Positions 17,015 through 36,082 of a stretch of 36,294 nt of DNA are shown here, one piece after another (position 1 is the stretch's first letter; the number at the start of each line of letters is the position of its first letter). The translations under genes and the position numbers were made by a program. The notes beneath the pieces were generated by a model that saw nothing but the letters and a program-made list of their open reading frames with translations, had not been told where the DNA came from and made no database searches. The DNA lies in IMG/VR virus record IMGVR_UViG_3300031251_000956, positions 1 to 36,294 of that record. The stretch is one strand, 5' to 3'. This DNA is from a virus.

Positions 17015-17464
17015 ATGGCAGCAAAAACAAAAGAGCGCGAACAGGCTTTTGATTTGTTCATAAATACATCGTTAACGCTTAAGGAAATAGCCCAAATGGT
17101 TAAGGTTAGCCAAAACCAAATTGGTAAATGGGCGGAAGCTGATAAGTGGGAATTATCTCGTACAGGTAAGCAAAATACCAGCGGCCAAATTATAGCCGGT
17201 TGGTATGTGCAGTTGAAGATGATAAATGATGAAGTAACAAAGCAAGGCGGCATACCAACAACTGCGCAAAGCGATACAATGAGCAAGATTGCTGATAATA
17301 TCCAAAAGCTATCTAAAAGACAAAACTTAAGCATGTATTACATGGTGCTTAAAGAGTTTTTGAAAGAACTTATGATAAGCAATGTTGACGCTTCAAAAAT
17401 ACTTGCACCGCTTATGCTTGATTTTATTAAGCAAAAGGCACAAACCCTAGCAAATGATATTTAA
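17015..17464 (+). CDS. Terminase small subunit
   Basis: 149 aa. The N-terminus KTKEREQAFDLFINTSLTLK then EIAQMVKVSQNQIGKWAEAD is a helix-turn-helix with the usual KWAEADKWE ending seen in small terminase subunits (Mu gp27 type). Further helices (SMYYMVLKEFLKELMISN) probably make the oligomer. It overlaps the large subunit gene by 11 nt. Role: recognises the phage end for headful packaging. It is the first gene of the + strand late block, just downstream of the dyad region. Confidence 0.8.
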   Translation: MAAKTKEREQAFDLFINTSLTLKEIAQMVKVSQNQIGKWAEADKWELSRTGKQNTSGQIIAGWYVQLKMINDEVTKQGGIPTTAQSDTMSKIADNIQKLSKRQNLSMYYMVLKEFLKELMISNVDASKILAPLMLDFIKQKAQTLANDI

Positions 17465-18980
17465 ACCAGGTGATGGCAGGCTGATAAAGGAATTTGAGGA
17501 ACTGGTTGATATTATAAAATCCAGCGCCGCAATTGACCCCTTTGAAAGCAGCAAGGATAAGAAGAACCGTATAAAGTTTTTATTATCCAACTTCATGGCA
17601 TTTTGCTTGTTCTATTTTCCTGAATACTGCTACGCTGAATTTGGGTGGTTTCATAGGGAAATACCTGTTGAGGTTTTTAAAAACCCTAATCATATCTATT
17701 TGGAACAATGGAGCCGAGGGTTTGCAAAAAGCACCATATACGGTTTATTCCTGCCGTTGTTTATAAAGTTTAATGGTGAATTAAACGGTATGATTGTAGG
17801 CAGCTTAAACCAAACTATGGCTGCTGAAAAACTGGCAGACCTTCAAGCTAACTTACAACACAACCCGCGTATCATAAACGACTTTGGTATTCAATTTAGT
17901 TACGGCAATTGGGAAGACGGCAATTTTAAAACACGGGATGATGTGGCTTTCTATGCGTTTGGTAAAGACCAAAGCCCGCGCGGTTATCGCTTTAAATGGA
18001 AGCGTCCTAATTACGGTGCTGTGGATGACTTGAATATGGCCCGGCAGCTTAAAAATTTAGATATAGCAACGGAGGATAAAAAGTGGGTATTAGAAGAATT
18101 GAAACCAGCACTGTGGACGCGTAAATGGTGGTTGACTGTTTTGCAAAACAAGTTTCATGATAACACCGTTACGGCGCTGCTTGAGAATGATGAAGAGATA
18201 GAAACCATTGTACACCGGGTTAACATAGTTGATGCAAACGGAAATAGCAACTGGAAAGAAAACCCGGACTTCTCAACAACAGCCATAAAAGAACTTGAAA
18301 AGAGCGAGGGCGGCGGGTTTATACGCGAACGCATGAACACACCATTCGAGGAAGGTACGGCATTTAAAGCCGAATGGATGAACCAATGGGTTGATTGCAG
18401 TAAGGTTAAGTATGATGGCGTTTGGATTAACTATTTGGACCCATCATATACAGCTACCGACAAAAGCGATTTTAAGGCATGGGTAACAATTGGCAAATGC
18501 GGAAAATACTATGACATTATTGATTGTTGGTTACGCAAAACAACCAGTAAAGAAATGTGGGAAAGGGCGTACGCTGTTGATGATGAATATAGCAACCAAA
18601 CGATACAGCATGCAATGGAAGCAAATTTTATACAGGAAGAGGTACATAAAAAGGAATTGGAGCGCGTAGAAGAGGAGAAAGGTTATCCCCTGCGATTGTT
18701 ATACGACCACCGAAGCAAGGGCGGTAAACATGAGCGCGTAATGACACTGCAATCCTTATTTGAGCGGCTTTTATTTCGCTTCAACATAAACAAGAAACAT
18801 ACCCCGGATATGAAATTATTGCGAAGCCAATTTTTAGCATTTGAAAAAGGCAGCAAAATTAATGATGATGGCCCGGACGCAACAGAGGGCGGTGTATGGA
18901 TGTTGGACCGCTATAACAAACGAAGCGGCACCAAAACCCGTAGCGGTAAATACAAAAAAACAAGTAAAAGAAACATGTAA
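17454..18980 (+). CDS. Terminase large subunit
   Basis: 508 aa. ATPase: SRGFAKST (residues 87-94) as a Walker A variant, NYGAVDD (D191-D192) as Walker B. Nuclease: WINYLDPSY with D328 as first metal ligand, and DDGPDATEGG with D474 near the end, plus DHRSKGGKHERV in between, as in RNase H-fold terminases of the Mu gp28 type. Role: ATP-driven DNA packaging and headful cleavage. A start at MIFKPGDGRL overlaps the small subunit gene. All key residues that I can identify are present. Confidence 0.9.
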   Translation: MIFKPGDGRLIKEFEELVDIIKSSAAIDPFESSKDKKNRIKFLLSNFMAFCLFYFPEYCYAEFGWFHREIPVEVFKNPNHIYLEQWSRGFAKSTIYGLFLPLFIKFNGELNGMIVGSLNQTMAAEKLADLQANLQHNPRIINDFGIQFSYGNWEDGNFKTRDDVAFYAFGKDQSPRGYRFKWKRPNYGAVDDLNMARQLKNLDIATEDKKWVLEELKPALWTRKWWLTVLQNKFHDNTVTALLENDEEIETIVHRVNIVDANGNSNWKENPDFSTTAIKELEKSEGGGFIRERMNTPFEEGTAFKAEWMNQWVDCSKVKYDGVWINYLDPSYTATDKSDFKAWVTIGKCGKYYDIIDCWLRKTTSKEMWERAYAVDDEYSNQTIQHAMEANFIQEEVHKKELERVEEEKGYPLRLLYDHRSKGGKHERVMTLQSLFERLLFRFNINKKHTPDMKLLRSQFLAFEKGSKINDDGPDATEGGVWMLDRYNKRSGTKTRSGKYKKTSKRNM

Positions 18981-19995: not shown

Positions 19996-21240
19996 ATGGC
20001 TTTTAATTGGTTTAAGAAAAAGGTAGAATTGGGCAAGGCTATAACTGTTGCCCCCGTTGATAGTAAAGGGCAACGCGCACGGGCAAGCAGGGTAATAAAA
20101 TGGCAACCCCGCAGGGAAATATCTTTTCAGATAGAAGATATTAAATTGGCTTTAAACCTGGCAGAAAACCCCGACAACCCCGACCGCAGCAGGCTAACCA
20201 ATATTTATAAATATATATTTAAAGACGGCCACCTTATAAGCCAGGTGCGCACGGCAAAGAATGCTGTTAAGTGTGAGCCATATATGTTGTACGGTGATGA
20301 TGGCAAGCCTAACGAAGCCGCAACAAAGCTTATACGCCAAATATGGTTTAATTCAATTATTGAATATGCTTTAGAAAGTGAATTTATTGGCCACCGGCTT
20401 ATTGAAGCTGACGACCTGGTGCCGGGAGATAAGACAAAAGGCAGCATTACCCCAATTGACCCTTTGTATGTAAGCCCTGAAAGGCAATGGATATTAATTG
20501 AGGGGACCGTTAACGGCAGCTACCTGCCTTATGCTGAGTTTAAAAACGAAATGGACTTAATGGAATTTGGCAAGCGTAACGACTTTGGTATATACCTGCA
20601 ATGCGCCTATAACGTTATATGGAAATACTACAGCCGCAGTGATTGGAGCCGTGGCAGTGAAAAATTTGGCATGCCTATTTTATCTATTGAAGCGGACACC
20701 AACAACGATAGCGAATTAGACGCTATAGAAAGCCGCGCGGCCAACTTTGGTGCAGATGGCTACATTGTTACCCAAAAGGGCGACACGGTGCAAATAATTG
20801 AGCGGGCGGGCCAACAAATGCACCTTATTTGGAAAGACAATATTAGTCTTTGTAATGATGAGGTAAGTAAGATTATTAACGGGCAAACTGCCACCAGCGA
20901 TGAAAAGAGTTTTACAGGGGCTGCACAAGTGCAGGAAAGGACTATGGATGATTTTACTATGTCGCGCCTGCAAAATATAGCGGATGAGGTTAACCAAAAT
21001 GTTATACCATACCTTATTTACAAGGGCTTCCCGCTTACAGGGTTAACGTTTGATTATCCCCGTGTGGTTAGCGAAAGGGAAAGGCGTATAAAAGGGCAAC
21101 CGCTTGCAACAGATGCGGAGCCGGAACCTAACGAAGCAAAGAACGACCCGGATAACGACCCGCAGCAGGATGATACCCCAACGCCAAACCCTGCAAAGCA
21201 ACCGGCAAAAAATGTTTTACCACGTAAAAAGAAAAAGTAA
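19996..21240 (+). CDS. Portal protein (DUF935, Mu gp29-like)
   Basis: 414 aa. N-terminus FNWFKKKVELGKAI, then LTNIYKYIFKDGHLISQVRT and KNAVKCEPYML, the start of DUF935 portals. Central LIEADDLVPGDKTKGSIT and IDPLYVSPERQWILI, and C-terminal SLCNDEVSKIINGQTATSDE then AQVQERTMDDF are further DUF935 signatures. The C-terminus is an acidic, Pro/Asp-rich tail with a KKKK end. It overlaps the F-like gene by 1 nt. Role: dodecameric DNA channel at the head vertex. Confidence 0.85.
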   Translation: MAFNWFKKKVELGKAITVAPVDSKGQRARASRVIKWQPRREISFQIEDIKLALNLAENPDNPDRSRLTNIYKYIFKDGHLISQVRTAKNAVKCEPYMLYGDDGKPNEAATKLIRQIWFNSIIEYALESEFIGHRLIEADDLVPGDKTKGSITPIDPLYVSPERQWILIEGTVNGSYLPYAEFKNEMDLMEFGKRNDFGIYLQCAYNVIWKYYSRSDWSRGSEKFGMPILSIEADTNNDSELDAIESRAANFGADGYIVTQKGDTVQIIERAGQQMHLIWKDNISLCNDEVSKIINGQTATSDEKSFTGAAQVQERTMDDFTMSRLQNIADEVNQNVIPYLIYKGFPLTGLTFDYPRVVSERERRIKGQPLATDAEPEPNEAKNDPDNDPQQDDTPTPNPAKQPAKNVLPRKKKK

Positions 21241-22604
21241 TGTGCGGCATAGCAGATGATGGCATATTTATTATAAGCCGTAAAGCCCTGGTACAGCTTA
21301 ATAAAAAGCTTAACGTTGAAAATACGGTAAGCGATGCTATTACGCAGATATACGACGATAGAAGGGTTAAAGCAGGCACACAAGACGCTTTATTTAAGGG
21401 CTTTTATGAGCCGCTTAAAATGGCTGTTGATGAGGGTTTTGGCAAGCCGTTGGCGCGTGTTGAATATGGTACGCCTAATTACGAAATGCTTAAGAACCTG
21501 CAAACTAATACGGCTGTATTTGCCATGTTTAAAAGCCATGCCTTTGTAAAAGATATGGCAGCAAAGCTTAAGGATGATACAGGTAATTTACGCAGCCGCG
21601 AAGATTTTAAAACGGAAGCGCTTAAGATTGACAGCACTTACCGGGTTGACTGGTTAAATACGGAATACGATACAGCCGTGCGCACCAGCCGTATGGCTAC
21701 CATTTGGGCTAAAGCGCAAAAAACAAAAAAGCTTTATCCCAACCTTAAGTACATACCAAGCCGGGCCGCTCATCCGCGTTTAGATCATAAACAATACTAT
21801 GGTATTATTCGCCCTGTTGATGATGTGTTTTGGTCAACACATTACCCGCCTAATGGTTGGAAATGCCAATGCGGTGTTGAACCAACAGACGAAGAGGCCA
21901 ACGATGTACCCGCCAACCTGCCTGAACCCGAAAAAGGTTTTGATTTTAACAGCGGTATTACCGGGCAAGTGTTTGACCTGAAAAACAGTAACTACATTAA
22001 AAGCGTACCGGCTGCACAACAACCGGCTTTAATAAAGCAGGCTGAAACAGTGGTTAACAGCGATGCAGCAGCAACAGCGCCGCCGCAAACACTGTACACG
22101 GCAAAGAACGGCAACACGGTTGATGCGCACCCTATGGCTTTAAATAACGCTGATTTTAAGCAGGTATTTGATATGGCAAGGCAATTAGCCAACAGCAGCG
22201 AAGGGCCGAAAAAAACCACCTTATTGCCAACCGTTGAAGATGACACGTTGCGTAAAGCTTTGCTGCCTGCAACAGGTGTTAAGGGTAAGAAAAGCCCGGA
22301 CTATTTATTTGACGATACAAGGGTTGCAGACCTAAAAATATCGTCTACAGCAACTAAGAAAGCTATACAGGGGGCAATAAGCAGTTGCCGGGAGCAATGC
22401 GATAACCTGGTGCTGAAGATTGACGATAGCAACACCATTAGCGATGATGATTTACGCGCGGCCATAAAAGGACAACTAATGCAGGACGCATATAAGGACT
22501 TTGGCGATATATACATTTACAGGTATGGCACTGTGTATAAAACAAGCCGTGAAGAGATTGTAAAAGGCAAGTGGGATATAAAAGCAAAAAGCGCTAACAA
22601 GTAG
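21240..22604 (+). CDS. Mu F-like head morphogenesis protein fused to nuclease-like toxin domain
   Basis: 454 aa. Residues ~40-245 are a Mu F-like/gp30 domain: AVRTSRMATIWAKAQKTKK, AAHPRLDHKQYYGIIRPVDD, THYPPNGWKCQCGVEPTDEE (the H-PPN-WxC-C end of the family). After a linker (245-300), residues ~300-440 form a separate domain with KKSPDYLFDDTRVADLKI: D354 and D364-x-K366 fit a PD-(D/E)XK nuclease core, followed by KKAIQGAISSCREQCDNLVL as a helix. This resembles CdiA-type C-terminal tRNase toxins. Role of the F-like part: internal head protein injected with DNA in some phages. The nuclease part could act in the new host. No cognate immunity gene is obvious next to it. Confidence 0.75.
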   Translation: MCGIADDGIFIISRKALVQLNKKLNVENTVSDAITQIYDDRRVKAGTQDALFKGFYEPLKMAVDEGFGKPLARVEYGTPNYEMLKNLQTNTAVFAMFKSHAFVKDMAAKLKDDTGNLRSREDFKTEALKIDSTYRVDWLNTEYDTAVRTSRMATIWAKAQKTKKLYPNLKYIPSRAAHPRLDHKQYYGIIRPVDDVFWSTHYPPNGWKCQCGVEPTDEEANDVPANLPEPEKGFDFNSGITGQVFDLKNSNYIKSVPAAQQPALIKQAETVVNSDAAATAPPQTLYTAKNGNTVDAHPMALNNADFKQVFDMARQLANSSEGPKKTTLLPTVEDDTLRKALLPATGVKGKKSPDYLFDDTRVADLKISSTATKKAIQGAISSCREQCDNLVLKIDDSNTISDDDLRAAIKGQLMQDAYKDFGDIYIYRYGTVYKTSREEIVKGKWDIKAKSANK

Positions 22605-23206: not shown

Positions 23207-23677
23207 ATGTTTTGTTACCCGGCCTACAAAGCCATTAAAGAACAATTAGCAGGCATAGCGCAAACATTTTTTTATACAGGGCAATACACAAAGGGCGCTG
23301 ATAATACCAGCTACAAAGTACCTGCCATTTATATAGAAATGCCAAAGCCGGGGGCTGTGGTAATGTGGGGGCGGCGGTTGAAAAGCATAAAGCCCGCAAT
23401 TGTGAAAATACACTACATAAGCTATGCGCCTTTTAAATCGGTTGACGGGGCAATACAGGATAGCGCCATTGCAGCGCATGAAGCAACCTTAAGGCAAATT
23501 GATTTGCTGTTAGAAGGTTGGGCCGCACGTAATGCACCGGAAGCCGGGAAAACGGAAGGTACACTGTTAACACAAAAGCTTATTAACAGCAACGTTAATA
23601 TGCTCAATTTTCAGGATAGTAATTTGTTTAGTATTTTAAGCTATACAACGGAGATATACAGCAGGCATTTACAATAA
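23207..23677 (+). CDS. gp37-like tail/neck protein
   Basis: 156 aa. Starts MFCYPAYKAIKEQLAGIAQT, with a beta core (SYKVPAIYIEMPKPGAVVMW, KPAIVKIHYISYAPF), a helix AIAAHEATLRQIDLLLEGWA and a final strand FSILSYTTEIYSRHLQ. The strand/helix layout and a late position after the gpG-like gene fit a tail terminator or Mu gp37 protein, which caps the tube at the neck. Strict homology is not visible. The gene converges with the - strand gene at 23669-23920, overlapping its stop by 9 nt. Confidence 0.6.
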   Translation: MFCYPAYKAIKEQLAGIAQTFFYTGQYTKGADNTSYKVPAIYIEMPKPGAVVMWGRRLKSIKPAIVKIHYISYAPFKSVDGAIQDSAIAAHEATLRQIDLLLEGWAARNAPEAGKTEGTLLTQKLINSNVNMLNFQDSNLFSILSYTTEIYSRHLQ

Positions 23678-23920
23678 CGCAAGCTGCGAGGCTACATGTT
23701 GAACGGCCTTAGTGTATTTAATTACAGTGTCAACACATGGAATAGTGGCATCATCTTCCCGGATAATTTTAGCAACGGTAGCGGTAGACAGGTAAAAGTC
23801 GTTTGCAACGTCCTGTATAATAGCTTCCCAACTCCATTTTGGATTACGCTTTTTAAGCGCCTTGTAAGCTGCTTTTATAGCTGTATTTCTGTTTTTTAAA
23901 AGTGTGGGATTGTGCGGCAT
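23669..23920 (-). CDS. Helix-turn-helix protein, Mor/C-like activator candidate
   Basis: 83 aa. Basic N-terminus (MPHNPTLLKNRNTAIKAAYK), then WEAIIQDVANDFYLSTATVA-KIIRED, a helix-turn-helix with the layout of the Mor/C C-terminal domain (eLA--y-ls---V--Ii). In Mu, Mor lies two genes after GemA at the end of the early region; here this gene is the last of the same run (GemA at 24759-25178). Mor is longer (129 aa), so the N-terminal dimerisation part may be missing or different. Role inferred: switch to late transcription at the 16924-16964 dyad or elsewhere. Confidence 0.6.
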   Translation of the reverse strand: MPHNPTLLKNRNTAIKAAYKALKKRNPKWSWEAIIQDVANDFYLSTATVAKIIREDDATIPCVDTVIKYTKAVQHVASQLALL

Positions 23921-24758: not shown

Positions 24759-25178
24759 TTAAAAATAACTTTTTTGCATCTTTTCAAACCCGGTTACAAT
24801 ATTCGGTAATTCTTCGTAAGTGTAACCGTTCAATTTTTTGCCGCCCTGGTTAATACACCATGCGTCTATACGCACCATATCTGCAACGGGTTTGCCGTCC
24901 CTTAGTATAAGGTTACCTTTTGCGTCCCTTTTGTGCCAACCCAAATCATGCGCCATGCTTATTATTTTACGGCGCATTTTGTTGGCAGCTTCCGCGTTGG
25001 GTACCAATGTTTCCAAATGGCGCACAAAGGCGGTAAATTCATCGTCTGCCATATTGCTAATGCTAACAGTTCGCCCACCCGTAAAACCGCGTACAATGCT
25101 TTCTTTTTGTTCTGTATCGCTATTGCCGGTAATAGCTAATAATGTGCGGGCTTTTTTTATTTGGTCTGCGTTTGGCAT
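24759..25178 (-). CDS. gemA: GemA-like regulatory protein (DUF1018, Mu gp16)
   Basis: 139 aa. The motif MRRKIISMAHDLGWHKRD and the following RIDAWCINQGGKKLNGYTYE are the defining part of DUF1018/GemA. N-terminal IKKARTLLAITGNSDTEQKE fits the variable first helix. Role: GemA-type early protein reported in Mu to affect host gene expression and DNA topology. It lies 9 nt downstream of the small gene at 25188-25385. The size is slightly below the enteric GemA. Confidence 0.8.
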   Translation of the reverse strand: MPNADQIKKARTLLAITGNSDTEQKESIVRGFTGGRTVSISNMADDEFTAFVRHLETLVPNAEAANKMRRKIISMAHDLGWHKRDAKGNLILRDGKPVADMVRIDAWCINQGGKKLNGYTYEELPNIVTGFEKMQKSYF

Positions 25179-25187
25179 GGGGTAAGT

Positions 25188-25385
25188 TTAGTGATTAAAA
25201 GTTAACTGGCTTTCATCCGGTAACATGGCTTTTAGCAGGTGGCCTAATGTTTTGCGCTCATCGGGGTTGTCTGTATTTTCAAGGGCTGTTACCAAAGCTT
25301 TAAGTGTAGCTGCGTAATCCCCTGCATTCCCCGCCACCTCAATACTCATTACATGGCCCTTTTCGGCTTTTCTAACGGTTGTCAT
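25188..25385 (-). CDS. Small unknown early protein
   Basis: 65 aa. Begins MTTVRKAEKGHVMSIEVAGN and is then a helical pair GDYAATLKALVTALENTDNP/ERKTLGHLLKAMLPDESQLT. It has no recognisable motif. A second Met at residue 13 is possible but the first fits the spacing better. It lies between GemA and the structured RNA region; its start (25385) is 33 nt from the first hairpin of that RNA. Confidence 0.5.
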   Translation of the reverse strand: MTTVRKAEKGHVMSIEVAGNAGDYAATLKALVTALENTDNPDERKTLGHLLKAMLPDESQLTFNH

Positions 25386-25417
25386 ATTTAAGATATATAT
25401 GCTGACTTAATCAAGAA

Positions 25418-25579
25418 GGGGCTATAAAAGCCCGGTCGTCTTCGTCACATCAGTGTACAAGTACACAATGCCGGTGCAGCGTTGGTTACCCCATAAAGGG
25501 TGGCCGCAGAATGCACGCCGACCGGGTTACATTTAGTAGTAATCCGGGGTGTACCTGTTAAAGCACCAATGTGACGAAG
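25418..25579 (+). ncRNA. Compact multi-helix RNA element, family not recognised
   Basis: An 11-bp closing stem (25440-25450 with 25569-25579, CTTCGTCACAT/ATGTGACGAAG) encloses four hairpins: 25453-25466 (GTGTAC/GTACAC); an arm 25474-25516 containing 25484-25491 paired with 25498-25505; 25522-25530 with 25539-25547; and 25548-25552 with 25563-25567. An alternative 8-bp pairing, 25431-25438 (CCCGGTCG) with 25519-25526 (CGACCGGG), would make a pseudoknot and competes with the third hairpin. A further small 5' hairpin (25419-25433) competes for the same strand. Four G-U pairs in three stems become A-C mismatches on the - strand, so the RNA should be read from the + strand, opposite its neighbours. 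Function unknown. Confidence 0.65.
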
Positions 25580-25641
25580 AGCGTGCAAGATATTGATATT
25601 ATTTTTATGCATCATTTGTTTAAGCTATTTCTAAGCGGGTT

Positions 25642-26070
25642 TTAAAGTTTATCCCAATTGTTTAACCATTGCATTGTTTTTATATAACGTTCGGGCAACA
25701 TTGGTTTATACCAGTTATTCCTATCGCAGTATTTGCGGTATTTAATACAACTGCTGAATAACAGGTATTGGTCACTTGATGAAAGCTTTGCAAAGGCAGG
25801 CGCTGCAAGGTGCATATTTCTATTATAGGGGTATTCCCGCTTAAACTCTTCAAAAGTTATATCAAATGGCTTTTCTTCAATCTTTATGGGCGCTGCCGAA
25901 AACTTATCGTGTAACTCATTGCCACGTAAAGGCATTTGGCTTTTTAAATAATGCATTTGCTGTTCGCTAAGCTGCGCACCAAAACGCATTTGCAAAAGAA
26001 CATCGTTGCCATCGTACACCACTTCTACGGTGCCTGTATATTTATCGGATGTTATATGAAATAAACGCAT
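25642..26070 (-). CDS. Unknown early protein with duplicated N-terminus
   Basis: 142 aa. N-terminal MRLFHITSDKYTGTVEVVYD is repeated, in diverged form, by the tiny ORF at 26077-26169. The middle (QLSEQQMHYLKSQMPL) is helical, and the C-terminal half, DITFEEFKREYPYNRNMHLA then LLFSSCIKYRKYCDRNNWYK, is Trp/Tyr-rich. It resembles small phage replication or DNA-binding accessory proteins in general shape only. No family is recognised. Confidence 0.6.
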   Translation of the reverse strand: MRLFHITSDKYTGTVEVVYDGNDVLLQMRFGAQLSEQQMHYLKSQMPLRGNELHDKFSAAPIKIEEKPFDITFEEFKREYPYNRNMHLAAPAFAKLSSSDQYLLFSSCIKYRKYCDRNNWYKPMLPERYIKTMQWLNNWDKL

Positions 26071-26178: not shown

Positions 26179-26943
26179 TTAAAATAGTACTAATTTTTTT
26201 TGTTCGTTCTTTATCCTTTCAACGGCTGCAGTGTAATACTTCTCATTTGCTTCACAGCCTATGAAATTTCTTTTTTCCTGTATGCAGGCTATCGCCGTTG
26301 TGCCGCTTCCGCAAAACCCGTCGAATATTACCCCCCCCTCATTTGTATATGTTTTTATAAGGTAACGGAATAACGCGACGGGTTTCTGCGTAGGGTGTAC
26401 TACAGCATCCTCGTTGTTGCCAAATAAAAGGCCGTTCCAATTATTAATGGTTAAAATACTCGATGGGTAACGCTTGCCAGTATCTACATAAGTAGTGCCT
26501 TTATGAGTTCCATAGCCATCATACCTTTTTTCTTCATTTTGTCTTACACGAGGGTGTAACTCATTTGTATAGGTAAATTGCGGATTATATACCGGAAGAT
26601 GTTTATAAAATACCAGTATATTTTCGTGTCCCCTTAATGGTTTCTTTTTTGCATCTAAAAACCCCATTTTGGTTACCTTATTCCAAATAATTTCATATTT
26701 AAAAAACTTTCTGCATGCATTTATAACATCAGTAACGTAAGGCTGTTGCGAGGTTATTATTATGATGCCATTTGGTTTTAATACCCGCCAAAATTCAGGG
26801 AAGTATAGAGAGTAATCTAAAGCTTTATCCCATGCTAAATTAGTGCTACCATAAGGCGGGTCAATCAATATCATGTCAACACAGCCATTTTCAAGCTTTG
26901 CCAACATTTCTAAGCAGTATGTATTTTCAAATTGTATTGTCAT
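26179..26943 (-). CDS. DNA methyltransferase, DPPY type (beta class)
   Basis: 254 aa. Catalytic motif IDPPYGS at residues 27-33, AdoMet motif FDGFCGSGTT at 207-216, with target recognition between them (about residues 90-180, including RGHENILVFYKHLPVY). The catalytic motif before the AdoMet motif makes it class beta. DPPY usually means N6-adenine methylation. It overlaps the C5 methyltransferase gene by 4 nt (ATGA). There is no restriction gene beside it, so the likely role is protecting phage DNA from host restriction. The target sequence cannot be read from here. Confidence 0.85.
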   Translation of the reverse strand: MTIQFENTYCLEMLAKLENGCVDMILIDPPYGSTNLAWDKALDYSLYFPEFWRVLKPNGIIIITSQQPYVTDVINACRKFFKYEIIWNKVTKMGFLDAKKKPLRGHENILVFYKHLPVYNPQFTYTNELHPRVRQNEEKRYDGYGTHKGTTYVDTGKRYPSSILTINNWNGLLFGNNEDAVVHPTQKPVALFRYLIKTYTNEGGVIFDGFCGSGTTAIACIQEKRNFIGCEANEKYYTAAVERIKNEQKKLVLF

Positions 26944-27830
26944 TCGTTAAAATATTTAATTGCTTCGTTACCTATCCAGTGGGCTACATCAACGGCAACA
27001 GCGTTGCCTATTAGCTTGTAACTGTTAACAGCTTCGGGAAATTTAAAATCGTTGGGGAAACCCTGCAACCTTGCATATTCGCGTATACTAAATGGGCGCA
27101 CACCATGCAGGGCGTTTTTATCTTTCACCATGCGTGTACCCAAATCTTTTGCATAGTGTGCAACGCAGGTAGGCGCTATTGCATTGGGATTGTTTGGGTC
27201 AACTATAATGGGCAAATCTCTGTAGCCGCCCTGCAAGCGTTTTAAGGCGCATGCAGGCATATTAAAGCGCGGGCTACGCTCTAACAGGCTTTTAATAGTT
27301 GGCCTCAATTTAACAGGCGCAGGGGCTTGTATACGCGCCCTTTTGCGTGTTGCTATTAATATAAGCCTTTCGCGGCGCTGCGGTAGCCAGTTGGCGGCAT
27401 CAATCGGGCAAAATTCATTTATATGGTAGCCGGGCAATTTGGTCATGGCCTCCATTACCACTTTAAATTTTTTCATCCCTGGTACATTTTCCACTATAAA
27501 CATTTCGGGGCGCTCAATAGCTATGTGCCGCAGGGCATGCAAAAACAACTCATCCCCTGTACGGGTGCCGTGTATATCTGCTATGGTACTGTACTTTGTG
27601 CAGGGGTAGGTGAATATGCTTATATCGGCTTTGGGCTGGTCTAACACCGCCATGGTGGTTATATCAGCGGTTAATATATCGTGGCTGAAATAATGCTTAT
27701 TCATCCGCATGCAGTCTGTTGCCTTTTTGTCAAGGTCAACAGATTGTATAATGTTTATGCCTGCGCGCATTAACCCAATATCCATACCGCCGCACCCGCT
27801 AAAATAGCTTTTGGCTGTTGGTTTGTACAT
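26940..27830 (-). CDS. C5-cytosine DNA methyltransferase
   Basis: 296 aa. Motifs in order: YFSGCGGMDIGL (I, residues 9-20), YPCTKYS (IV, catalytic Cys77), FIVENVPGMKKF (VI), WLPQRRERLILIA (VIII), and LIGNAVAVDVAHWIG near the end (X). The variable part between VIII and X, about residues 165-250, would read the target. All the standard motifs are present, so the enzyme should be active. It is short for the family, as are many phage members. It pairs with the DPPY-type enzyme downstream. Confidence 0.9.
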   Translation of the reverse strand: MYKPTAKSYFSGCGGMDIGLMRAGINIIQSVDLDKKATDCMRMNKHYFSHDILTADITTMAVLDQPKADISIFTYPCTKYSTIADIHGTRTGDELFLHALRHIAIERPEMFIVENVPGMKKFKVVMEAMTKLPGYHINEFCPIDAANWLPQRRERLILIATRKRARIQAPAPVKLRPTIKSLLERSPRFNMPACALKRLQGGYRDLPIIVDPNNPNAIAPTCVAHYAKDLGTRMVKDKNALHGVRPFSIREYARLQGFPNDFKFPEAVNSYKLIGNAVAVDVAHWIGNEAIKYFNE

Positions 27831-33069: not shown

Positions 33070-34017
33070 TTATTTTGGCATGTTCCATTTAATTCTAAAA
33101 GCCTCTTCCGTTACCGGCTCACCTTTGGCGTTACATTCCTCAATTACCGGCTGCAAATAGTCGTGCAGTTCACCGTAGTTTGCACACTGTACATTAAGCA
33201 GCTTTTTAAGGCCCTTATCCAATATTTTTAATGCGTTGTAAAACGGTTCAAAGTCTAACACTTCATCAAGCCTGCGGGTGCCTGCCTTAAAGCGGCGGAT
33301 AAATTGGGGTATGCCTACCACGTCTTTACGCTCTAACTTTTCAAGGGTGCGTAATAGCTGGTCGGTACCAATAAGCACTATGCTGCAATAGGTGTTCACA
33401 TTATCAAACACGGTTTTAATCATGCGTATAAGCTGTGCTTTGGCATTCTCCATTTCATCAAATATTATCTGTGGCTGGTGGCCGCTGCGTTTTATCTCCT
33501 TAAGCTTGTCAAACACACGTTTCATGCGGGCCGCTTTGGTGCCATCATCAGCAAGCCCCAACATGCGGCATAGTTCTTTTATTACATCGTTTAACAGCAT
33601 CATTTCGTTAACTATAATGCGATAGGTGTAGGCAGGGTTTTTAAGTGCAAACTTTTCAACCGCAAAGCTTTTACCCAACCCGGTGCGGCCTATAATCATG
33701 GCTGTGTTACTTGCCTGCTTAGTTTCCTGCAAGGTGGCTATAACCGCTTTAAAATTGTTGTGCGGGATGGCAACCCATGAACTGCTACCACGCTCCATAT
33801 CTATAAAATCGGCAAGCTGGTTATAATACTTATCGTGTATAACGGTGCCTTGCGGGTTTGTGCCGTTGGTTATAACGTGTTTTTTCTTTAACATGAAACT
33901 CATATAGGTTTCAGTTATGTTTGAAATGCGGCTCATGTCCGCCATTTTCAAATTGTTTTGCTGCATATAAAGCAGCGTGGCATCAATTATTTTGTCCTTA
34001 ATTTCTGTGGTTAACAT
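33070..34017 (-). CDS. MuB-like AAA ATPase, transposition target protein
   Basis: 315 aa. Residues 1-45 include an N-terminal helix-turn-helix (NLKMADMSRISNITETYMSF), as in MuB. Walker A IGRTGLGKS (G110-S117), Walker B QIIFDEMEN (D187-E188), and IVLIGTDQLLRTLEKLERKD as sensor region. The C-terminal part is helical. Role: ATP-dependent DNA-binding protein that selects and presents target DNA to the transposase. Adjacent to the MuA-like gene with a 28-nt gap, as A-B in Mu. Confidence 0.85.
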   Translation of the reverse strand: MLTTEIKDKIIDATLLYMQQNNLKMADMSRISNITETYMSFMLKKKHVITNGTNPQGTVIHDKYYNQLADFIDMERGSSSWVAIPHNNFKAVIATLQETKQASNTAMIIGRTGLGKSFAVEKFALKNPAYTYRIIVNEMMLLNDVIKELCRMLGLADDGTKAARMKRVFDKLKEIKRSGHQPQIIFDEMENAKAQLIRMIKTVFDNVNTYCSIVLIGTDQLLRTLEKLERKDVVGIPQFIRRFKAGTRRLDEVLDFEPFYNALKILDKGLKKLLNVQCANYGELHDYLQPVIEECNAKGEPVTEEAFRIKWNMPK

Positions 34018-34045: not shown

Positions 34046-36082
34046 TTATAGGTATGCGTTTACATCTACTTTGCTATCCAAATAGGCTTGCTGCCTTGCC
34101 TGCCAATCGTCGGCCTCTTCTGTTATCTCTTTCGCCTTTTTGGTGTGGGTTGCCTTCGCGTTATCTGCAATTGCTTTTTGGTAGGTTGCTTTTGGCTGTA
34201 TGCCTGCCTGTAGTATGCTGGCAGCATTAATGCCTAAACGTTGAAGGGTATTTTTACGATTGTCAACATCTGTAGCAATGCTTTTAACGTGTTCTAATTT
34301 CTGTTGCAGCTTAAAGTTTAACAAGCTGCGTTCACCCGGTGCATAGTCTTTTAAAGCCCTGCTTACGCGGGTAATTTCGTAAGCTATAAAGCGCACCTTA
34401 TCGCCGTCTGTAATAAGTACGCGGCTTTTGTCGAACACATCGTATATAGCCTGCACCTTTTTATTTATCAACTTTAAATAATGGGTATCGGGTATATCAT
34501 AAATCAATTCTTCTCCGTCAATGGTAATGTTAAGGCCCGCGTTTGTTATAGTATTTGTCCAATGGTGTGGGGTGCCAAACAGTTGCAGCATGTGTGCATC
34601 GCTAATTTGCTTTTCGCCGCTCAATTCACTTTTGCTAAAGTTGTCTATCCAAACCTGTTGTTTGGTAACGCCATCTTTTTTAAGGTTACGCAGGTACTCT
34701 ACATGGTCTGCAAAGTAGCGGTGTGCCTCTTCTTTTATAGGGAAAGACTTTTTGTTTATTTCCAGTGCATCGGGGTTTATACGATACCCGCTGGTAATGT
34801 TTTGCCCTGCATAATTTGGGTAACGTTTAAGGCTGTTATGCCATTCATGCCCAAAAGCCTGCTCAATATATTTACCACGCGGTACCTTTTGTTTGGCAGG
34901 TGTATAGTTGCCAATTTGTTGGTAAAAGGTAGCTAAATCACCTTTTAATTTAGGGTCAACCCCCCAACGGTCTGACTGTATTTGATGTGGCAGCAACCAA
35001 CAGCCTGTTAACTCTTTTATGTGGTAAACGGCATCTAACCAGGCGGCTTTTATTAGCTGCTTTGTAACCGTTTCACCGTAGGCATAGCCCAAAATGTAAT
35101 CGTTATGGGCATCCATTATAACAATAAGGGCGTATCGGTAATAGTAGTTGCTGGTAACCTCTTTACCATCTTTACCTATATATGTGTCGCGGAAGTACAA
35201 ATCACAATCGTTATCATCGTGCGCAACCAGCAGCATAGGTGCGGATGGGCGCTTGCCATGTATAACCTTGCCAAACATATTATACCATGCAGCGTTACCA
35301 TTGCGCTCACCCATTATGCGGTACAGGTTTTTGCGGCGGTGGTTACCTACAGTAGCTTCGTCAATAGTTTTATAGCCCGCAGCTTCCGCCCACCTGTTAT
35401 AGTTCATGCATATATAGCTATCGTTAAACTGGTTGGGGTGGCTTATAAAATCAAGCAACACCTTTTCGCTTACTTCGTCGTTTATTTTGGCGGCAGACTG
35501 GTTGTTATACTTTTTGCTGATAAGGCAGGCGTAGCCATCTGCCTTGTATTCTTTTATTTTGGCACACAGGTAGCGGTATTCTATGGGGAACTGGCTACTT
35601 ATACGCCCGGCTTCACGTTCAATTTTAAGCAGGTCTTTAACGTGTTTTAAAAACTGGTCAACGCTCAAACCCAATCCGTCCTTTATTACTTTTTTGGCAT
35701 TATCGCGGGCCTTAATAATCATATTAAGCCAACTTGCTTCGTTGGTGTATCGGGTGGCAGCTTCTACCGGCAGGTGCTTTTGGGCGTCAAACTGGTAAGC
35801 CAAATAGAACTCTTCCGCCTTAAAATCTTTGGTTACCAGGGCGCGTATGGGCGTTTTGGCAATGTAGTCGTAAGGGTTGCCAAATACCTGTATTACCTTT
35901 TCTTTATTATTATCCTTTAAACCTTCGTAGCCAACCAGTACCCTGCGTTTGTCGTCCGGGTCGTTTATAAAGTCCCAACACTTGGTGCCTTCGCTTTTGG
36001 CTTTTTTCAAATACCCTTCGCTAAAGCCGCATTGCAGCATTTCCGAAAATTCTAAATAAAGCTTGTTTTCTAAGATTTTCAT
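34046..36082 (-). CDS. MuA-like DDE transposase
   Basis: 678 aa. DDE triad: VAHDDND (D289 or D290), IQSDRWG (D371) and KYIEQAFG (E407), with the D371-E407 spacing of 36 residues that suits D,D-35-E integrases. The first ~200 residues hold DNA-binding helices, and the region after ~470 includes a beta-barrel-like part and a basic end (AKATHTKKAKEITEEADDWQ), where MuA contacts MuB. Length matches MuA (663 aa). Role: replicative transposition and integration. All catalytic residues appear present. Confidence 0.9.
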   Translation of the reverse strand: MKILENKLYLEFSEMLQCGFSEGYLKKAKSEGTKCWDFINDPDDKRRVLVGYEGLKDNNKEKVIQVFGNPYDYIAKTPIRALVTKDFKAEEFYLAYQFDAQKHLPVEAATRYTNEASWLNMIIKARDNAKKVIKDGLGLSVDQFLKHVKDLLKIEREAGRISSQFPIEYRYLCAKIKEYKADGYACLISKKYNNQSAAKINDEVSEKVLLDFISHPNQFNDSYICMNYNRWAEAAGYKTIDEATVGNHRRKNLYRIMGERNGNAAWYNMFGKVIHGKRPSAPMLLVAHDDNDCDLYFRDTYIGKDGKEVTSNYYYRYALIVIMDAHNDYILGYAYGETVTKQLIKAAWLDAVYHIKELTGCWLLPHQIQSDRWGVDPKLKGDLATFYQQIGNYTPAKQKVPRGKYIEQAFGHEWHNSLKRYPNYAGQNITSGYRINPDALEINKKSFPIKEEAHRYFADHVEYLRNLKKDGVTKQQVWIDNFSKSELSGEKQISDAHMLQLFGTPHHWTNTITNAGLNITIDGEELIYDIPDTHYLKLINKKVQAIYDVFDKSRVLITDGDKVRFIAYEITRVSRALKDYAPGERSLLNFKLQQKLEHVKSIATDVDNRKNTLQRLGINAASILQAGIQPKATYQKAIADNAKATHTKKAKEITEEADDWQARQQAYLDSKVDVNAYL

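Follow-up and report, generated by a model that had tools for sequence, protein, structure and literature searches.

A candidate two-state structured RNA in the early region of a Mu-like phage of Bacteroidota

Does the gap between two early genes of a Mu-like phage carry a structured RNA and, if so, on which strand and with what possible role? The sequence analysed here (the window) comprises the 36,294 bases of an IMG/VR virus record. Its gene content and order, which are matched in Peternella, fF4, TCUEAP3 and Porphyromonas phages, identify it as a Mu-like phage of Bacteroidota. The head genes are oriented opposite to the early genes, which lie on the minus strand. The closest terminases found are 62-69% identical and come from genomes labelled Chitinophagaceae and Pinibacter soli, so that the host is probably a member of the Chitinophagaceae. 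The element occupies a gap on the early side, between a 142-aa and a 65-aa ORF (Table 1). The gene that follows the 65-aa ORF is called GemA-like from its position and from a single weak match of its family (one member to PF06252 GemA, E 0.0075). Slightly upstream of this module, two adjoining DNA methyltransferase genes are carried by the minus strand at 26179-27830, one with PF01555 (N6/N4 type) and the other with PF00145 (C5 type).

The original prediction described a compact multi-helix RNA with an 11-bp closing stem (25440-25450 with 25569-25579), internal hairpins and a competing 8-bp pair (25431-25438 with 25519-25526), and all of these are present. The 162-nt element folds at -74.5 kcal/mol on the plus strand (z = -6.6; no shuffle is this low) and at a close -71.5 kcal/mol on the minus strand (z = -6.5). 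When 894 segments of 162 nt were folded along the whole sequence on both strands, ranks 1 and 2 went to the two strands of the segment at 25435, which fold about 24-25 kcal/mol lower than their own shuffles, compared with 15 kcal/mol for the next-best segment. The element is thus the strongest folding outlier of the whole sequence. The next-best outliers, at 26245-26406 and 27541-27783, each lie inside a methyltransferase gene.

Table 1. Coordinates of the structured element, its parts and the genes discussed (window positions; L181 is the homologue)
Feature	Position	Strand	Remarks
MuA-like transposase	34046-36082		
MuB-like gene	33070-34017		
142-aa ORF, function unknown, upstream of element	25642..26070	-	50% identical in L185; position conserved in relatives
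Conserved spacer, CTTGCAC just 5' of P2a; possible promoter	25580..25641	-	two-copy alignment
Structured RNA element, 163 bases, 5' end at 25579	25417..25579	-	covariance model match of 181 bits, the model itself built from this element and L181; folding outlier; homologue L181
P2a 5' arm CUUCGUCAC	25571..25579	-	pairs with 25440-25448; 9 bp in both copies, 2 double compensatory changes
P2b 5' arm AUUGGUG	25564..25570	-	pairs with 25449-25455; continuous on minus (two G-U), 3 double changes
P2c 5' arm ACAGGUACAC	25549..25558	-	pairs with 25457-25466; 10/10 pairs in both copies, 3 double changes
H2 hairpin CGGAUUACnACUAAAnGUAACCCG	25523..25546	-	almost invariant; conserved in L181; no pair varies
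P1 5' arm CCCGGUCG, half of competing pair	25519..25526	-	CCCGCAUG in homologue; 3 consecutive double changes
P3 5' arm GUGCA	25512..25516	-	pairs with 25474-25478; invariant in both copies
H1 hairpin ACCCUUUAUGGGGU	25488..25501	-	5/5 pairs in both copies, 1 double change
P3 3' arm UGCAC	25474..25478	-	invariant in both copies
P2c 3' arm GUGUACUUGU	25457..25466	-	pairs with 25549-25558
P2b 3' arm CACUGAU	25449..25455	-	pairs with 25564-25570
P2a 3' arm GUGACGAAG	25440..25448	-	pairs with 25571-25579
P1 3' arm CGACCGGG	25431..25438	-	CAUGCGGG in homologue
T, terminator-like 3' hairpin GGGCUUUUAUAGCCC	25419..25433	-	overlaps P1 3' arm; terminator scan matches in window and L181; 1 double change
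65-aa ORF, directly downstream of element	25188..25385	-	59% identical in L185
GemA-like gene (Mu gp16 position), after 65-aa ORF	24759..25178	-	57% identical in L185
Small gene, Mor position	23669..23920	-	CD3324-family match well below cut-off
Large terminase	17454-18980		

A blastn search of 399 genomes of the family of genome G002 gave one real match (G191:C13:13488-13616; 75% identity over 129 nt, E 8e-16). The contig carries relatives of MuA, MuB and the early genes of the window phage, and the copy is flanked, in the same gene order, by orthologues of the 142-aa (50% identical) and 65-aa (59%) ORFs. It is a true homologue, and the prophage that carries it belongs to a genome (G191) of the probable host family, itself probably one of the Chitinophagaceae. 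About 60 nt upstream of the element are also conserved. The two copies differ at 63 columns, and the element with its borders is 68% identical, compared with only 42-55% at third codon positions in the genes on either side. This difference indicates that the element is under constraint and that selection, not recent descent alone, maintains it. A 56-aa minus-strand ORF across the element (25445-25615) was rejected as a gene, since the alignment contains single-base gaps that would change its reading frame. Between locus L185 and the window, the early genes beside the element are 50-59% identical and the head genes only 24-30%, which suggests that Mu-like phages exchange modules.

Covariation in homologues, the check proposed with the original prediction, supports the fold. 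On the minus strand, 54 of 56 pairs are kept between the copies despite the differing columns, in a hand alignment whose register was set using the structure, a choice that biases the result towards structure as such more than towards either strand. Random substitution at the same columns kept a mean of 43.5 pairs and a maximum of 52 in 20,000 draws, and never reached 54. Double compensatory changes number 13, compared with a random mean of 6.1 (P 1e-4). The structure-blind MAFFT alignment gives a weaker but still clear signal (52 of 56 pairs kept, with 9 double changes and P 0.0012), and a column-shuffle test of the structure pairs gave 8 of 500. All these values come from two sequences only, and the pairs of H2 and P3, which never vary, cannot be tested by covariation. 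P1 keeps 8 of 8 pairs. Considered alone it is not significant (P 0.097 under the most permissive null); its weight comes from an exhaustive search in which P2 and P1 were the only helices of at least 8 bp common to both sequences. Taken with the folding outlier, these changes make it highly probable that this is a real structured RNA, previously unlisted.

The strand requires more attention. The original prediction placed the RNA opposite to its neighbours because all four G-U pairs appeared to point to the plus strand, and the two-sequence comparison points the other way. On the plus strand, the outer helix includes three A-C mismatches in the window (25451/25568, 25452/25567 and the region of 25460/25555) and A-C mismatches at two other pairs in the homologue: P2b is interrupted by such mismatches and P2c forms 9/10 and 8/10 pairs in the two copies. 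On the minus strand these become G-U pairs and, with the copies aligned in register, the helix is nearly continuous in both, which argues that the RNA very probably belongs to the minus-strand operon of its neighbours. The two-sequence consensus energy is -68.8 on the minus strand versus -50.0 on the plus strand with the hand alignment, and -61.5 versus -48.7 with the MAFFT alignment. Over 57 pairs, the two copies form 56 and 54 on minus and 53 and 51 on plus. A conserved A-C in H2 on minus is a G-U on plus, and several of the G-U pairs favouring the plus strand belong to inner stems that are not conserved in the homologue. Counting G-U pairs in one sequence can thus pick the wrong strand.

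P1 spans from the junction to the tail past P2 and would therefore form a pseudoknot with P2. Its 5' arm (25526-25519) has CCCG in common with the lower stem of H2 and its 3' arm (25438-25431) has GGG in common with hairpin T (25433-25419), so that P1 excludes both. In window and homologue respectively, the energies are -15.2 and -13.6 kcal/mol for P1, -7.3 and -6.0 for T, and -5.5 and -4.9 for H2. The proposal of a two-state or pseudoknotted RNA is therefore retained, and there is good evidence in the two sequences for two mutually exclusive pairings. Such an arrangement, backed by the covariation, would suit a terminator/antiterminator leader upstream of a gene on the same strand. The quality of the terminator itself is better in the homologue, where a good T-run follows T (tail CACTTTTTTT), than in the window, where T is a weak hairpin with a poor T-tract (CTTCTTGATT); the terminator scan of the window gave one match versus 0.8 expected by chance.

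The best explanation, which we advance only tentatively, is an intergenic leader-type RNA of the minus strand that would switch between the pseudoknot and the terminator-like hairpin. The long irregular helix P2a-c would close a junction holding two conserved hairpin domains (H2 and P3/H1). Either CCCGGUCG would form P1 with CGACCGGG of the 3' tail, or its CCCG would join H2, while the GGG of the tail could alternatively form T, a hairpin similar to a weak intrinsic terminator. With P1 formed, T would be blocked and RNA polymerase would continue into the 65-aa ORF and the genes at the GemA and Mor positions. With H2 complete, T would form and lead to attenuation. During transcription H2 would be completed before the P1 3' arm has been synthesised, and energies of about -15 (P1), -7 (T) and -5 kcal/mol (H2) make both states conceivable. 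A protein, a ligand, a small RNA or folding kinetics alone might trigger the switch. The sequences themselves show the fold, the orthology, the compensatory changes and the mutual exclusivity; from these we infer transcription and its strand, termination and the target genes. The element resembles a regulatory RNA switch of a kind not described before. That it represents a novel type of regulatory RNA in phages, a two-state switch with a pseudoknot placed before GemA/Mor-position genes, sensing a phage or host signal and timing early-to-middle transcription in Mu-like Bacteroidota phages, seems to us unlikely. The literature searches made here surfaced no structured RNAs controlling transcription in Bacteroidota phages, a topic that is little described, and to our knowledge no RNA switch is known in Mu-like phages. 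A compact two-state element beside these genes makes RNA-timed phage transcription directly testable.

Among the alternatives, a discrete minus-strand RNA extending from about 25580 to hairpin T is possible, if rather doubtful. It might bind a protein, act as an antisense sRNA, or act on RNA polymerase in the manner of HK022 put. The conserved spacer with CTTGCAC just upstream, the long invariant stretches of primary sequence (CGGAUUACnACUAAAnGUAACCCG; UGCACCGGCAUUGUGU) and hairpin T, which could terminate the transcript, are consistent with such an RNA. However, a scan of the spacer gave no sigma-70-type promoter match, and the mutual exclusivity of P1 and T suits a switch better. The put RNA, like the element, is a structured RNA of an early phage transcript, but it has two stem-loops in about 70 nt (PMC9378689), whereas the element is longer (163 nt), more branched and pseudoknotted. 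An RNA of the plus strand, antisense to the operon as first proposed, would agree with the slightly better fold of the window alone on that strand, with the G-U pairs of some inner stems and with an H2 that is perfect there; it is made improbable by the outer-helix mismatches of both copies and by consensus energies 13-19 kcal/mol better on the minus strand.

The element might also act as DNA, as a recombination or protein site, a cruciform or a small mobile repeat. Its inverted ends are perfect over 12 bp and the module is missing from most relatives. However, several G-U pairs, at differing places in each copy, would be mismatches in DNA hairpins, the genomic position is identical in both phages, and a single copy is present in the G191 genome with none in the 398 other family genomes, so that we regard a DNA-level role as quite improbable. 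Finally, the outer helix P2a-c, a 26-bp imperfect helix between two same-strand genes, could belong to a structured spacer of an operon transcript that aids its processing, for instance by RNase III, or its stability; P1 would then be one component of the final fold. Such a spacer needs neither invariant hairpin sequences nor competition between P1 and T, and is very improbable.

As the original prediction anticipated, no known family matches the leader-type RNA favoured here. Rfam 15 gave no family at or above the gathering threshold over the whole window, only MEG8_3 (E 3.9) for the element alone at a lax threshold, and no match for the homologue. Retron ncRNAs (msr-msd) are branched RNAs of similar size closed by inverted repeats, as is the element, but no reverse transcriptase was recognised among the scanned genes neighbouring it. 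The element resembles pseudoknot attenuators and riboswitches in its leader position and in the succession of a conserved domain and a hairpin excluding the long-range pair; it differs from them in having no Rfam match, in its weak terminator in the window and in that copies were found in two phages only. A likeness to HDV-like ribozymes had been noted from the order A, B, A', B' of the two long pairings. This order stands and nothing further does: an HDV-like descriptor search of both strands gave no match, and the P3/L3 layout differs. HDV-like ribozymes have a P1 of about 7 bp with its 3' strand directly after P3/L3 (P1/P3 relation from PMC3774820), plus P2 and a CNRA-like J4/2, whereas P1 of the element has 8 bp with 80 nt and a long branched insert between its strands, and no P3/L3 directly before P1'. 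The HDV-like reading was therefore rejected as most likely wrong.

The element is rare. In about nine related loci (L093, L095, L189, L190, L192-L195 and L197) the two flanking genes are adjacent, separated by no more than about 90 nt, which indicates that the RNA and the 65-aa ORF, which accompanies it in both phages, are an optional module, and that this gene order can do without the RNA. Remote relatives of the 65-aa ORF occur without the RNA in Mu-like Bacteroidota phages (L018 near 16435; L052 15539-15724, minus strand). A covariance model of the two copies identified no third copy in 84 related phage loci, in 38 loci (10 + 28) around GemA-like genes, or in 399 family, 399 order and 385 class genomes, sets that overlap at least in G191. 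No match was obtained by blastn with the element against phages and plasmids or with the homologue against phages. The large genome-set scans were strictly filtered and took a single genome from each species, and exact patterns only were used to scan IMG/VR, so that further copies may exist. Two loci from this pattern scan were judged to be chance matches: L186 has no window protein in common and matches the model poorly, and the match of L188 is limited to the H2 stretch. The partial matches L182-L184 are also due to chance, their similarity ending abruptly after about 30 nt. In the Pinibacter prophage, a palindromic ACCGACATCGATGTCGGT lies directly upstream of the GemA-like gene (L094 16940-16970). 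The early region of L095 carries a second, inverted and partial copy of a head-morphogenesis gene (17426-17929, minus strand), 35% identical to 21240-22604.
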